From Thermococcus stetteri (GTDB taxonomy: Archaea; Methanobacteriota_B; Thermococci; Thermococcales; Thermococcaceae): a DNA stretch of 64,000 bases. Shown in pieces: positions 38,558 to 43,138 of the stretch. The number at the start of each line of letters is the position of its first letter. Positions within the stretch are counted from its first letter, which is position 1. The DNA is taken from NCBI RefSeq assembly GCF_017873335.1, contig NZ_JAGGKB010000001.1:806001-870000 (forward strand). The letters run 5' to 3'. Below the pieces are notes generated by a model. It was given only the letters and a program-made list of their open reading frames with translations. It was not told the DNA's origin and ran no database searches. The position numbers and the translations under genes are program-made.

Positions 38558-39508
38558 TCATTCCCTCAGGAGTCCCCTTATTATCAGCTCGGCCGCCTCT
38601 TCCTCCGTTAGACCCTTCGCCATGAGCTGGAGGAGCTGGGCCTCGTTTACCCTTCCTATCGAGGCCTCGTGGGTGAGCTCGACCTTATCGTTCTTCACCC
38701 TCAGGAGCGGTACAGTCTGGACGTCCGCGTTCCCTTTCACTATCTCGTGGCACTCCACATGCCCCTTGGCGTAGTCTCCGAGGCCGTAGGCCTCGTTTAC
38801 GACGTTCGCCCTCGCCTCGTCGAAGGCTATAACGGTGCTCTTGAGGTTGGCCCTTGAGTATGCCCCCTCAAGGTAGGCGACCTCCTTTACCTCAACAGAG
38901 TCGTCCTTGACTGCCTTAATCTTCGACTCAAGCTCAAGAACCGCCCTCTCGCCAAGCTTGGCCACCATCTCAAGCTTCAGCTCCCTCGCTCGATGCTTCG
39001 TGAGGGAGAACTTTCCTGTGTAGCGGGCGTTCCTGCCGAGCTCGACTTCCGTTTTACTCATCATTCTCACGCCCTCACCGTGGACGTGCTCATCCTCATA
39101 AAGGACGCTCGCGTTCTCCCCGACCTGTATCCTCGCGTATGCATCGTGCGTGAAGTCCTTCGCGTAGGGAAAGATGCAGTGGGATGTGAACTTCACCTTC
39201 GAGTTCCTGCCGACCTTAATGTTGAAGACGACCTTCTGGTAGCCCTCGCTCTTCAGGTAGCCCGTGCAGAGGTGTATAGGGAAAGGAAGCTCAACGTCCT
39301 CGACTATCTCAACGTCTGCCTTCACGCCGTTCTCTATTTCTTCCCCCTTTATCTGAACCCCGGGGACGTTGTTGAGGCCGATGATCTTCTCCCCGCTTAT
39401 GATTATCGCCGCTATCCTGTCGCCGAAGAGGGAAGTGTCCAGCCCTTCTTTTTCATAAATTTCCACCAGTGCTTCATACTCCTTCACTCTATCCATCTTA
39501 ATGACCAT
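38558..39508 (-). CDS. SufB/SufD-family Fe-S cluster assembly scaffold
   Basis: 316 residues, shorter than bacterial SufB. The beta-helix core shows YEDEHVHGEGVRMMSKTEVE, and the C-terminus has the strictly conserved LTHEASIGRVNEAQLLQLMAKGLTEEEA. With SufC it forms the scaffold on which Fe-S clusters are built in the cytoplasm. The start overlaps the sufC stop by several bases, so sufC and this gene are one operon. SufB versus SufD cannot be decided. Confidence 0.9.
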   Translation of the reverse strand: MVIKMDRVKEYEALVEIYEKEGLDTSLFGDRIAAIIISGEKIIGLNNVPGVQIKGEEIENGVKADVEIVEDVELPFPIHLCTGYLKSEGYQKVVFNIKVGRNSKVKFTSHCIFPYAKDFTHDAYARIQVGENASVLYEDEHVHGEGVRMMSKTEVELGRNARYTGKFSLTKHRARELKLEMVAKLGERAVLELESKIKAVKDDSVEVKEVAYLEGAYSRANLKSTVIAFDEARANVVNEAYGLGDYAKGHVECHEIVKGNADVQTVPLLRVKNDKVELTHEASIGRVNEAQLLQLMAKGLTEEEAAELIIRGLLRE

Positions 39509-40217
39509 CGCTCACCACTTCCAAAAGCGGGCACTTACCGCAGGCTCTCTTGTAGTATTCAACAACCTCCTCCGAAAATCCCTTTCTAATGACTTTTCCA
39601 CCACACACAAAGTAGCTGAACTCCGTCTTCCTTGCAATGTCCTCATGATGGGTGATTAGGATCACAGTTGTACCAATCCTCCTCAGGTGATCCAAAATAT
39701 CATCTATTAACTCTCCCGCCGTTATGTCCAGTCCAGAATCGGGCTCATCAAGAATTGCATACTTCGGTTTTAAGAGAAGAATCGACGCAAGTTCAACTCT
39801 CTTCCTCTCTCCCCCGCTGAGGCTTTTATCAACAAACCTTGAGTGATAGAGCTCATACGGTAAGCCAACTACCTCAAGAACTTCCCGCACTTCCTCTTCA
39901 CCTACACTCAATTTTCCTCCCAGTGTGAGATACTCTTCAACCGTAATTCCATCGTAGCGTGCCGGCTCCTGCCAGAGCAGGGTAATCCCAAGCTTAGCCC
40001 TTTCCGTTATGCTAAGAGGAGTTATATCTCTCTCATCCAGCAGAACTTTACCTTCAGTTGGCTTTATAATTCCCATTAGAATGTAGGCTATAGTTGATTT
40101 CCCGGCCCCGTTGGGGCCCAGGATAGAATAGCTCATGCCTTCCTTAAACCTCATGTTGATCTCTTCCAGTATTTTCCTGCCGTTTATTGAGTAGGTCACG
40201 TTTCTCAAGAGCAGCAT
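39498..40217 (-). CDS. sufC: SufC-type ABC ATPase for Fe-S cluster assembly
   Basis: About 240 residues. Walker A is GPNGAGKST, the signature LSGGERKR, Walker B YAILDEPDSGLD, and the switch His in LITHHEDIA. I start at ATG 40217 (MLLLRNVTYSING); the frame is open further upstream but the domain begins here, and a TATA-like CTTTAAATT lies about 33 nt before the ATG, fitting a nearly leaderless mRNA. It energises the SufB/D scaffold downstream. The promoter region is shared with the divergent DGC-protein gene. Confidence 0.92.
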   Translation of the reverse strand: MLLLRNVTYSINGRKILEEINMRFKEGMSYSILGPNGAGKSTIAYILMGIIKPTEGKVLLDERDITPLSITERAKLGITLLWQEPARYDGITVEEYLTLGGKLSVGEEEVREVLEVVGLPYELYHSRFVDKSLSGGERKRVELASILLLKPKYAILDEPDSGLDITAGELIDDILDHLRRIGTTVILITHHEDIARKTEFSYFVCGGKVIRKGFSEEVVEYYKRACGKCPLLEVVSDGH

Positions 40218-40243
40218 GTGTATCAAAGAAGTTTCATGTGAAT

Positions 40244-40256
40244 GGAATTTAAAGTT
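40244..40256 (-). promoter_or_regulatory. TATA-like element of sufC
   Basis: On the minus strand AACTTTAAATTCC lies about 33 nt before the chosen sufC start. Inferred from position and A/T content only. Confidence 0.45.
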
Positions 40257-40284
40257 TTCTGGACAGCTTTGCCCAAAACTCTTG

Positions 40285-40293
40285 GTTGAGAAC
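40285..40293. promoter_or_regulatory. SurR-type palindrome GTTGAGAAC, site 1
   Basis: GTTGAGAAC fits GTTn3AAC, the half of the SurR redox-regulator consensus known from Pyrococcus furiosus. It lies 17 nt upstream of the TATA-like element of the DGC-protein gene and about 30 nt upstream of the sufC TATA on the other strand, so it could control both. The outer extension to GGTTGAGAACC makes it an 11-bp palindrome apart from the centre. Confidence 0.6.
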
Positions 40294-40349
40294 CAAAACA
40301 TATGAAAAAGATTTTAAATGAAAAAAATTTAATATGAATGGTGATTGAA

Positions 40350-40784
40350 ATGAGCGAAGAAGTTAAGATAGAAAAGCTCCCAAAGTTCTTGCCACTCTGC
40401 CACAAAGAAGCTGAGAACCTCGACATAATCTTCACCTGCTCCGGAGCGGCAAGTGTGGGAGAGATAGGCCATGAGGTTGGGGTTTTGCTAACCAACGCCG
40501 GCCAAAACGCGAGGCTCTGCTGTACAACTGCAGTTGCCGCCGGCTCTGAGATGCATCTTGACATAGGAAGAAGGGCGAGAAGGGTAATCGTCATAGACGG
40601 CTGCCCCATGAAGTGTGCAACCAAGGTTATAGAGAAAGCTGGGATAAAAATAGACCACAGCTTTACCGTTACGGACTTCGGGATAGCCAAGCAACCAACC
40701 CTTGACATAAGCGATGAGGACGTTCTCAAAGTTGCGTTGGAAATAGCCGAGAAGGTTGGGATGAAGCTCAACGTTAAACCGTAG
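40350..40784 (+). CDS. DGC-domain putative zinc/metal-binding protein
   Basis: 144 residues from ATG 40350, which has GGTGATT upstream. Cysteines sit in PLCHKEAE, FTCSGAASVGEIGHEVG, RLCCTTAVAAG and the namesake IDGCPMKCATKV, typical of the DGC family of small cysteine-rich proteins. Function of the family is not established; metal or thiol chemistry is likely. It stands behind SurR-type site 1, next to the HdrA-like and ferredoxin genes. Confidence 0.8.
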   Translation: MSEEVKIEKLPKFLPLCHKEAENLDIIFTCSGAASVGEIGHEVGVLLTNAGQNARLCCTTAVAAGSEMHLDIGRRARRVIVIDGCPMKCATKVIEKAGIKIDHSFTVTDFGIAKQPTLDISDEDVLKVALEIAEKVGMKLNVKP

Positions 40785-40793
40785 GTTGAGAAC
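40785..40793. promoter_or_regulatory. SurR-type palindrome GTTGAGAAC, site 2
   Basis: Identical 11-bp GGTTGAGAACC to site 1, exactly 500 bp downstream, with the same 17-nt spacing to a TATA-like TTTTTAAATGAA. The two promoters look like duplicates of each other. Directly after the stop of the DGC gene. Confidence 0.6.
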
Positions 40794-40850
40794 CTTTACA
40801 TTTGAAAATATTTTTAAATGAATTGAGGCTCATATATAGTGGTGACGCAC

Positions 40851-41216
40851 ATGAAAGGTCTCATACTCTGTGTTTGCCAGGGCACTTGTCCATCTTTCCA
40901 GAAGATGAATGTGTTTGAGATTTTAAACCACTTCAGAAGGGAGAAGAAGGTTGACTTTGTCGCTCTGCATCCCCAGCTCTGCGCCACCGATGGCGACAAC
41001 TTCTGGAGGGCTTTGCTCAAGAACGGGGAGGACATAGAGAAGCTCTACGTTGCCGGCTGCGACCCGGTGATGCAGAAGAAGATGTTCGGCTGGACGTTTA
41101 AGGAGCTTGGATTCGATGACCACAAGTTCATCGGAATAGAGATTAGGAACATGACCACGGAAGAGGCAATCAAAGCAATTGATAAAGCCATGAGCGTTGA
41201 TACTCAGGAGGGATAG
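40851..41216 (+). CDS. HdrA N-terminal-domain-like cysteine protein
   Basis: About 121 residues from ATG 40851 (GGTGA 4-9 nt upstream). ILCVCQGTCPSF, HPQLCATDGDNFWRAL and VAGCDPVMQKKMF correspond in order to the N-terminal Fe-S region of heterodisulfide reductase subunit A (CxCGxC, H-LCS, VAACSPR). The FAD domain of HdrA is absent, so it is a stand-alone electron-transfer or thiol module. It is followed 2 bp later by a ferredoxin, its probable partner. It has its own SurR-type site. Confidence 0.65.
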   Translation: MKGLILCVCQGTCPSFQKMNVFEILNHFRREKKVDFVALHPQLCATDGDNFWRALLKNGEDIEKLYVAGCDPVMQKKMFGWTFKELGFDDHKFIGIEIRNMTTEEAIKAIDKAMSVDTQEG

Positions 41217-41218
41217 AG

Positions 41219-41419
41219 ATGGCAGAGAACTGGTATCCAATAATCGACTACGACAAGTGCACCGGCTGCTTGACGTGCGCGAACTTCTGCCCCCATGGGG
41301 TTTATGACATCTCGGGGGGCAAGCCCAAAGTTGTGAAGCCTAAGGAGTGCGTGGAGTTCTGCAGGGGCTGCCAGAGGATATGTCCAACGGGGGCTATAAG
41401 CTACTTTGGAGACTCTTAA
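41219..41419 (+). CDS. Dicluster [4Fe-4S] ferredoxin
   Basis: 66 residues. The first cluster motif is CTGCLTCANFCP; the second is the variant CVEFCRGCQRICP. Length and spacing fit a two-cluster ferredoxin. GGAGGGATAG precedes the ATG. It is cotranscribed with the HdrA-like protein and presumably exchanges electrons with it. The 3' end overlaps the convergent NifX-like gene by 26 nt. Confidence 0.9.
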   Translation: MAENWYPIIDYDKCTGCLTCANFCPHGVYDISGGKPKVVKPKECVEFCRGCQRICPTGAISYFGDS

Positions 41420-41726
41420 TTGCCTCCTCTACTCTTTTTCCTGGTTTTACTTTGATTATCTTAACGCCTCCTGCCTCGAGTATCGCCTTCCCCTTCGGAC
41501 AGTCCACCGGCGTTAAGAGGACTTCTACACCAAGGTTCACCAGAAACAGGGCAACCTTTGAACCGGCCCCGTAGGGTTCCCCTCTATATGGGTTTTCCAC
41601 GACCTCAACGCTCTTGATTTTCCCATTCTCCAGCTCAATCAGGGTGAAAGTTTCGGCCCTTACGAGGCTCTCATGGACCTTATCGTCAAGCCCACCTTTT
41701 GAAGTTGGGAGGGCAACTTTAACCAT
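41394..41726 (-). CDS. NifX/NifB-like Fe-S (dinitrogenase Fe-Mo cofactor) domain protein
   Basis: 110 residues from ATG 41726 (GGTGAGG upstream). The Fe-Mo cofactor domain shows MVKVALPTSKGGLDDKV, PYRGEPYGAGSKVALFLV and LLTPVDCPKGKAILEAGG. In non-diazotrophs these small proteins carry Fe-S or metal clusters. It overlaps the end of the CDF gene upstream by 8 nt, so they are co-translated. Fits the metal/redox theme of this block. Confidence 0.85.
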   Translation of the reverse strand: MVKVALPTSKGGLDDKVHESLVRAETFTLIELENGKIKSVEVVENPYRGEPYGAGSKVALFLVNLGVEVLLTPVDCPKGKAILEAGGVKIIKVKPGKRVEEAIKSLQSSL

Positions 41727-42615
41727 TTTCCTCACCGCAGACGGTGGTTTTGTCCTCACATCTGTCCACTTCAAGTTGAACCGTTACGTGGGTTACTCCA
41801 AAGCTCTTGAGCCTCTCCTCTATCTCGTCTATAAGCCTTTGGGCCTCGCTGAGGGGCATATCATTGACCTCGACATGGCACTCGAAGTGGATTTCCCTCT
41901 CCCCTATACGCCAGGTGTGGAAGTGGTGCGCATTCTTAACACTGGGGATGCTCTCAATTTCGTGTTTTATCTCCTCAAAATTTAGATTTGGTGAAGCCTC
42001 CATGAGCACCTCAACGCTCTCCTTTAATATTTCATAACCCTCGCGGAGGATGTAGAGGGAGATCAGAACTGTGATGAGGGGATCTATCCAGAGGATGTTC
42101 CACTTTATGATAGCTATTCCACCGACCACAACGGCAACTGAAGAGAGCGTGTCGCTCAATAGATGGAGATAGGCAGAGCGGACGTTCATGCTCTCGTGGG
42201 CGTGCTCGTGGAGAAGCAGAACCGAGATTAGGTTGGCAAAAAGACCGATTAGGGCAACGCCGAGCATAAGCGGGCCGTCTATAGGCTCGGGATTCTTGAA
42301 GCGCTTGTAAGCTTCAACAAGGAGGAAGAGGGCAACGCCAACGAGAACGGCGGAGTTAACAAAGGCCACCAAAATCTCGGCCCTCTTGTAGCCGAAGGTG
42401 TACTTCTCGTTCTTCTCCCTCTCACCGATCTTTATGGCCAGGTAGCTCGCGAGGATGCTCATTGAATCGCTGAAGTTGTGGAGGGAGTCGCTGAGAAGGG
42501 CCAGACTTCCCGAGAGGAGTCCACCGATGATCTCAGCTATGGTTATCGTCATGTTAAGGGCGAAGGAAAACAGCATTCTGCCCTTGAGCTTATTATGGTG
42601 ATGTTCCATTATCAC
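41719..42615 (-). CDS. Cation diffusion facilitator (zinc/iron exporter)
   Basis: 298 residues. His-rich start MIMEHHHNK, six membrane helices with the paired metal site SDSLHNFSDS (helix II) and HLLSDTLSSV (helix V), and a cytoplasmic metal-binding domain (HHFHTWRIG, HFECHVEV). It exports divalent metals, probably zinc or ferrous iron, by proton antiport. Co-translated with the NifX-like gene downstream. Confidence 0.93.
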   Translation of the reverse strand: MIMEHHHNKLKGRMLFSFALNMTITIAEIIGGLLSGSLALLSDSLHNFSDSMSILASYLAIKIGEREKNEKYTFGYKRAEILVAFVNSAVLVGVALFLLVEAYKRFKNPEPIDGPLMLGVALIGLFANLISVLLLHEHAHESMNVRSAYLHLLSDTLSSVAVVVGGIAIIKWNILWIDPLITVLISLYILREGYEILKESVEVLMEASPNLNFEEIKHEIESIPSVKNAHHFHTWRIGEREIHFECHVEVNDMPLSEAQRLIDEIEERLKSFGVTHVTVQLEVDRCEDKTTVCGEENG

Positions 42616-42721: not shown

Positions 42722-43138
42722 ATGGAGCGCCTTGAATATTCCGCCCGCCTCAAGTGGGACGGCAACGTGGGAAGTGAAGCGAAGGTGAGAGGGTTTTCAT
42801 TCAGCATAGACACGAACACGGACGGCCACAATGTTGGTCCAAACCCTACGGAGTACCTCCTGGCCGCTATAGGCGGCTGTCTGACCGTCAACTGGGGCAG
42901 GCTAATCAAAAAGATGCGCCTTGACGTTGGGGAGATGGAGATAACCGTTTCGGGATGGAGGGACAGGGAGGAGCCTCAGCTGAAGGAGATAACCTACAGG
43001 GTTAGGGTGGTTACCAGCGAGCCGGAGAGGAAGATAATGCGCGTTAAAGAACTTGCCGAGAAGTATGGAACCGTCTTCAACACCGTTGGAGCGGAAAAGA
43101 TAAAGGGGGAGGTGGAGATAATAAGGCCAGGCGGTTGA
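42722..43138 (+). CDS. OsmC-family protein
   Basis: 138 residues. GPNPTEYLLAAIGGCLTVN is the family's first catalytic-cysteine region. The second cysteine of the peroxiredoxin pair is not evident, so hydroperoxidase activity is uncertain. GGTGG lies 5 nt before the ATG. First gene of a probable three-gene unit with the 89-residue protein and an MFS transporter. Confidence 0.85.
   Translation: MERLEYSARLKWDGNVGSEAKVRGFSFSIDTNTDGHNVGPNPTEYLLAAIGGCLTVNWGRLIKKMRLDVGEMEITVSGWRDREEPQLKEITYRVRVVTSEPERKIMRVKELAEKYGTVFNTVGAEKIKGEVEIIRPGG

Follow-up and report, generated by a model that had tools for sequence, protein, structure and literature searches.

Which genes may the sulfur-sensing redox regulator SurR control at a small, little-studied cluster of iron-sulfur (Fe-S) and thiol-type genes in the heat-loving sulfur archaeon Thermococcus stetteri, and in which direction? 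The cluster, which we call the block, lies within a 64,000-nucleotide stretch of contig NZ_JAGGKB010000001.1 (assembly GCF_017873335.1), analysed whole, referred to as the window and numbered from its first letter. An earlier sequence-only reading had described a DGC-domain gene facing sufC, then genes for an HdrA-N-like mini-protein and a ferredoxin, with a NifX-like protein and a CDF transporter convergent, and our family searches agree with these identities and this layout. Judging from the operators and their conservation, SurR very probably controls the block as an accessory Fe-S/redox module made up of sufC/sufBD, DGC and HdrA-N/ferredoxin.

The palindrome GGTTGAGAACC occurs in the window as two exact copies on the forward strand (40284-40294 and 40784-40794) and nowhere else. 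The copies are exactly 500 bp apart and a TTTTAAAT TATA element starts 17 nt past each, just as the sequence-only reading had described. Each palindrome forms the central part of the long SurR motif known from the literature, GTTn3AACn5GTT, which here runs reversed as AAC-n5-GTT-n3-AAC. The only two exact copies of this long motif in the window are putative operators 1 and 2 (Table 1). The short form GTTn3AAC is not enriched in the window, with 13 found vs. 13.6 expected. Operator 2 extends into the final codons of DGC, and because its outer AAC falls within the DGC coding region, the conservation of that AAC in the window is weaker evidence. We attach no meaning to the exact 500-bp spacing and regard it as incidental, the equivalent spacing being 503 bp in another genome (G031). 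A local regulator with the extended motif GTTn3AACn5CATNTGAAAA was considered and rejected; this motif is exact at these two genome sites only, and the SurR long motif covers both of them plus about 46 others.

SurR itself is encoded in the genome (L123, matching PF0095 in the Protein Data Bank (PDB) with E 7e-95). It has an N-terminal CxxC (LTCTEC), and its gene is divergent from pdo. When we searched the whole genome for AACn5GTTn3AAC, we found 48 matches vs. 6 for a reversed control. The promoters among the 48 include those of the divergent surR/pdo genes, Mrp-linked hydrogenase-type clusters, CoA-disulfide-reductase (CoADR)/NSR-like, Nfn and HypF-like genes, with the names taken from reading translations, except for SurR, which was checked against the solved PF0095. 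Because known-type SurR targets are among the matches, they act as a positive control for the pattern as an indicator of SurR sites. The SurR-type assignment made in the sequence-only reading is strongly supported by sequence, namely by the exact full motif at both sites, by these targets, by the SurR gene and by the conservation within the family described below. The block resembles the SurR regulon of Thermococcales (mbh, mbs, nsr, pdo, Nfn and others) in having the exact long motif, a site upstream of the B recognition element (BRE) and TATA, and an encoded SurR. It differs in its targets, namely an accessory Suf-like pair, DGC and HdrA-N/ferredoxin. These genes are absent from the SurR target tables and passages in the literature covered, which does not extend to the primary 2009 and 2017 SurR papers. 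FmdE-like proteins (EFHGHVCPYLALG) are also encoded near SurR long motifs (L104:743-1438 and L122:5060-5650), and a similar protein is found near an HdrA-N gene in L147.

The comparison of orthologous intergenic regions was done within the family Thermococcaceae. This sufC was found in 41 of 94 genomes, and among 42 sufC upstream regions the long motif is exact in 36, has one mismatch in 3 and is missing within 150 nt in 3. From shuffles, 0.065 exact motifs would be expected in the 42 regions. In an anchored alignment the specified bases carry 1.8-2.0 bits of information and the spacers 0.3-1.1 bits; anchoring on the best match biases the alignment toward the specified bases, and the count of 36/42 is independent of it. 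The regions come from related genomes and thus are not 42 independent events, although the spacers nonetheless vary freely. The motif is retained though the gene opposite sufC varies, whether this is DGC-HdrA-N-ferredoxin, HdrA-N-ferredoxin (G007, G102), DGC alone (G021, G066) or a 138-aa (amino acid) dicluster ferredoxin (G010, G009, G015, G013, G089 and others), and also where sufC has no close divergent gene (G028, G086). Since the motif is kept whichever gene faces sufC, operator 1 is, on this comparison, ancestral to sufC. Promoters of HdrA-N-like genes have the exact long motif in 10 of 12 cases and one mismatch in the other 2, and the motif is kept at loci unlinked to sufC and DGC (exact in G115, one mismatch in G078). 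As read from these promoters, operator 2 belongs to the HdrA-N gene.

There are a few rearrangements around these operators. The G102 promoter is chimaeric, with a left flank that matches site 1 of G106 (58/60) and a right flank that matches site 2 of G107 (57/60), so recombination between two similar promoters probably removed DGC in this genome. In G100 (L082:6721-7727), an insertion of approximately 0.9 kb separates the sufC promoter from the operator, and the operator stayed with the DGC gene. The block in G003 (L040:7796-8344) has decayed, with fragments of SufC, DGC and ferredoxin alone left. The 138-aa dicluster ferredoxin stands opposite sufC under the same SurR motif in many Thermococcaceae (e.g. 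L170:2335-2748).

For the direction of control, we looked at where the operators sit. Operator 1 is upstream of the TATA elements of both sufC and DGC, operator 2 is upstream of that of HdrA-N, and no SurR site is found downstream of TATA in these promoters. According to two papers, SurR acts as an activator from sites upstream of BRE/TATA and as a repressor from overlapping or downstream positions, and elemental sulfur (S0) oxidises its CxxC so that SurR is released from DNA (PMC12162507; PMC12401011). With operators upstream of BRE/TATA and none downstream, activation of the block without S0 is predicted. The surR and hypF-like promoters of the same genome likewise have a single upstream site. 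By contrast with the block, SurR sites lie on either side at Nfn and at one Mrp cluster. In most relatives, a ACATATGAAAA-type stretch is also conserved in the interval from the SurR operator to TATA (40295-40310 and 40795-40810 in the window), and this stretch may be the BRE plus a further element.

The SufC and SufB homologues are encoded side by side, divergent from DGC, and look like a divergent accessory pair rather than the principal (housekeeping) scaffold. Both miss the cut-offs of the curated SUF/SMS models (SufC, TIGR01978, 148.9 vs. 212.8 bits; SmsB 73.6 vs. 650; SufD 69.5 vs. 222), and this SufBD is the weakest of the four in the genome, with three better-scoring ones elsewhere. 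Adjacent genes for a SufC-like ATPase and a SufB-like protein are shared with SUF/SMS assembly as in SmsBC of T. kodakarensis (TK0730/TK0731). The differences are that the SufBD of the block has about 312 aa, vs. 430-450 aa for Tk-SmsB-like proteins, that its SufC ends in CxxC, and that this sufC is confined to the fraction of family genomes given above. The CxxC tail (CGKC, CGRC or CRRC; 39498-39600 in the window) ends this SufC paralogue in all 28 of the 28 orthologues examined.

The mini-protein proves to be a genuine HdrA N-terminal domain that stands alone. It matches HdrA by profile (hhalign E 5e-12), by sequence to a solved HdrA in the PDB (E 8e-6), and by fold, with an AlphaFold model (pLDDT 88.6) that matches HdrA with E 1.7e-5 and a TM of 0.73. 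Conserved ribosome-binding sites and starts place its start at 40851, and Cys7, 9, 13, 44 and 70 are invariant. About 100 residues can be aligned to HdrA, with the CxC, LC and AC/GC cysteine positions matching. The full-length HdrA architecture, with flavin-binding and ferredoxin domains in one chain, was not found: the protein has 121 aa and the reading frame holds nothing further. It also differs from HdrA in having an extra Cys13, in lacking the later HdrA Cys, and in its usual partner, a 66-aa ferredoxin. Relatives of 42-75% identity occur in Terraquivivens, Desulfurococcales, Thermoprotei, Thermoplasmata, Bathyarchaeota, Woesearchaeota, Aerophobetes and Actinomycetota metagenome-assembled genomes (MAGs), some of which may be wrongly assigned through binning. 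The same kind of ferredoxin adjoins HdrA-N in most matches, across several phyla of archaea and bacteria, often with an ArsR-family gene alongside. The pair is apparently a small uncharacterised family in several archaeal and bacterial lineages. The top NCBIfam match of the ferredoxin is HgcB, which we rejected, as it scored 48 bits vs. a cut-off of 99 and no HgcA-like neighbour was seen. In Woesearchaeota, the HdrA-N gene sits after a transporter gene and before a permease gene.

The DGC protein scores 101 bits against PF08859, for which the gathering cut-off is 27. Its start, from conserved ribosome-binding sites and starts, is 40350, and numbered from there its conserved cysteines are Cys30, 58, 85 and 89. 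It is thus like its family in the domain match and the four cysteines, and unlike it in being set among SurR operators, a Suf-like pair and HdrA-N. Among solved structures we found no convincing homologue, and the literature search for DGC function gave nothing relevant, with no tested function or solved structure found. A second DGC paralogue of 125 aa is encoded in the same genome (L043:5012-5389), between two transporter genes (one of the SBF family), with a UspA-like gene close by. DGC pairs in an Actinomycetota MAG are accompanied by GcvH-like, OsmC, ArsR and ArsP-type permease genes.

We favour the explanation that the block is a SurR-activated accessory Suf-like/thiol-redox module, and we believe that this is somewhat more probable than its negation when taken as a whole. 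Operator 1 would serve the divergent promoters of the accessory sufC/sufBD and DGC, and operator 2 the HdrA-N-like/ferredoxin operon. When S0 is absent, reduced SurR would occupy the sites upstream of BRE/TATA and switch on the three units; when S0 is present, the SurR CxxC would be oxidised, SurR would come off the DNA and the units would be transcribed less. The SufC-like ATPase and the short SufB-like scaffold would be part of the module, the cysteine-rich DGC protein may bind metal or sulfane sulfur, and the ferredoxin may exchange electrons with the putatively cluster-bearing HdrA-N protein. Most likely, the module would support Fe-S or thiol maintenance when sulfur comes from cysteine rather than S0. 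The routes of sulfur into Fe-S clusters in T. kodakarensis differ with and without S0, and without S0 this species needs a cysteine-desulfurase-dependent route (PMC12442378). We favour a role in S0-free growth, a last step that we infer. The Fe-S/thiol system under sulfur control that the sequence-only reading proposed holds up in part: SurR control is predicted from sequence with near certainty and a common theme of thiol, Fe-S and sulfur-redox control is plausible, but sufC/sufBD is not clearly a housekeeping scaffold.

Several points weigh against the favoured explanation. SurR control of the block is deduced from DNA sequence. DGC and HdrA-N/ferredoxin are separable, which makes "one module" a loose term, and their relatives elsewhere are also found in metalloid-type neighbourhoods. 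A fold search with DGC gave no significant match. Published data differ on how Suf genes respond to S0, with sufBD of P. furiosus reported up with S0, SufSCB of Pa. pacificus slightly down, and SufC of T. onnurineus (TON_0530) nearly unchanged (ratios 0.85-0.92), and the orthology of each to the genes of the block is uncertain. The P. furiosus report would fit the idea that another ArsR-type regulator reads the motif, or that SurR represses sufC rather than activates it, as would the position of operator 1 between two divergent promoters and the extra conserved ACATATGAAAA block. However, the motif is the SurR consensus, the genome has it in its surR/pdo, Nfn and CoADR promoters too, and the block has no site downstream of TATA, so we give this idea little credence. 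That the palindromes arose by chance, or by a hitch-hiking promoter duplication with no regulatory function, has in its favour the lack of enrichment of the short motif in the window. It is refuted at the sequence level, with a negligible chance of being right: the specified positions are exact in 36/42 regions while the spacers are free, and the motif is conserved at unlinked loci.

The other alternatives accept the SurR sites and concern the proteins. The genes may be a response to metal(loid)s or toxic thiols, with DGC as a trap for As/Sb/Zn-like metals or thiols, HdrA-N/ferredoxin as the reductant of a thiol adduct, and SurR as no more than the local redox trigger. The neighbours of the second DGC paralogue (one of them confirmed as SBF family), of the Woesearchaeota HdrA-N gene and of the DGC pairs in the Actinomycetota MAG point this way, as does the CDF transporter adjoining the block. 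On the other hand, the block has no arsenic-type transporter, its regulator is of a sulfur-redox type rather than a local sensor of metals, a Suf-like pair is the partner on the other side of the promoter, and GcvH-like, OsmC and ArsR neighbours are equally compatible with sulfane-sulfur chemistry. We consider this response unlikely, though well worth keeping in mind. The sequence-only reading had electrons flow from the HdrA-like protein and ferredoxin to DGC, in a pathway dedicated to Fe-S repair or persulfide. The three genes are indeed adjacent and share the operator type in at least six genomes, and they are likewise grouped together in G043, a class-mate from outside the order, and in one Bathyarchaeota genome. 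However, HdrA-N/ferredoxin occurs without an adjoining DGC (G007, G102, G115, G078) and DGC without HdrA-N (G021, G066), and no DGC was found in most other genomes checked that have HdrA-N/ferredoxin. By gene order DGC is an independent partner, which leaves the electron chain from HdrA-N through ferredoxin to DGC unsupported, and we think it improbable.

SurR has been described as the protein that switches electron flow between hydrogen and sulfur. If the favoured explanation is true, this switch would also be linked to Fe-S supply through an accessory Suf-like scaffold and thiol/ferredoxin proteins, and the block gives a concrete, testable set of promoters. A bolder version is that a mobile, cross-phylum pair of HdrA-N and 66-aa ferredoxin has been wired by SurR in Thermococcaceae to a CxxC-tailed SufC and short SufB, as a sulfur-switched second Fe-S/persulfide route without S0. 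We offer this version as a tentative possibility that we would not expect to hold.

Table 1. Features of the block and its flanks, in window coordinates.
Feature	Coordinates	Strand	Basis or remark
Short SufBD-core protein, about 312 aa	38558..39508	-	PF01458
SufC-like ABC ATPase, accessory paralogue, C-terminal CxxC	39498..40217	-	TIGR01978
Probable TATA element of sufC promoter	40246..40254	-	22 nt from operator 1; sequence and conservation
SurR operator 1 (putative)	40277..40293	-	Long motif AACTCTTGGTTGAGAAC, reverse complement GTTCTCAACCAAGAGTT; between sufC and DGC promoters
TATA element of DGC promoter, TTTTAAAT	40312..40319	+	Downstream of operator 1; conserved column block
DGC-domain protein, 144 aa	40350..40784	+	PF08859, E 4e-29; conserved start and cysteines
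SurR operator 2 (putative)	40777..40793	-	Long motif AACCGTAGGTTGAGAAC, reverse complement GTTCTCAACCTACGGTT; before HdrA-N-like gene
TATA element of HdrA-N/ferredoxin promoter, TTTTAAAT	40812..40819	+	Sequence; conserved in relatives
Stand-alone HdrA N-terminal-domain protein, 121 aa	40851..41216	+	Profile, solved-structure sequence and fold matches
Dicluster ferredoxin, 66 aa, partner of HdrA-N	41219..41419	+	PF00037/PF13237
NifX-like protein, convergent	41394..41726	-	PF02579; variably present beside block, module membership uncertain
CDF cation efflux transporter, convergent	41719..42615	-	Family match; variably present, module membership uncertain
OsmC-family protein, associated gene (inferred)	42722..43138	+	Follows HdrA-N(-ferredoxin) at unlinked loci G115, G078

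An OsmC gene also adjoins the DGC pairs in the Actinomycetota MAG. The DNA from sufC to ferredoxin (about 39400-41400, SufC-DGC-HdrA-N-ferredoxin) is 88-96% identical to that of G101/G098, which belong to another genus. SufBD is only 66-72% identical to G101/G098 over most of its length, vs. 80-89% to G021 of its own genus. Since the segment has this identity to another genus while SufBD does not, it has probably been exchanged between lineages, as a recombined and transferred piece of DNA. The GC content at third codon positions is also lower in sufC (0.50) than in SufBD (0.75).

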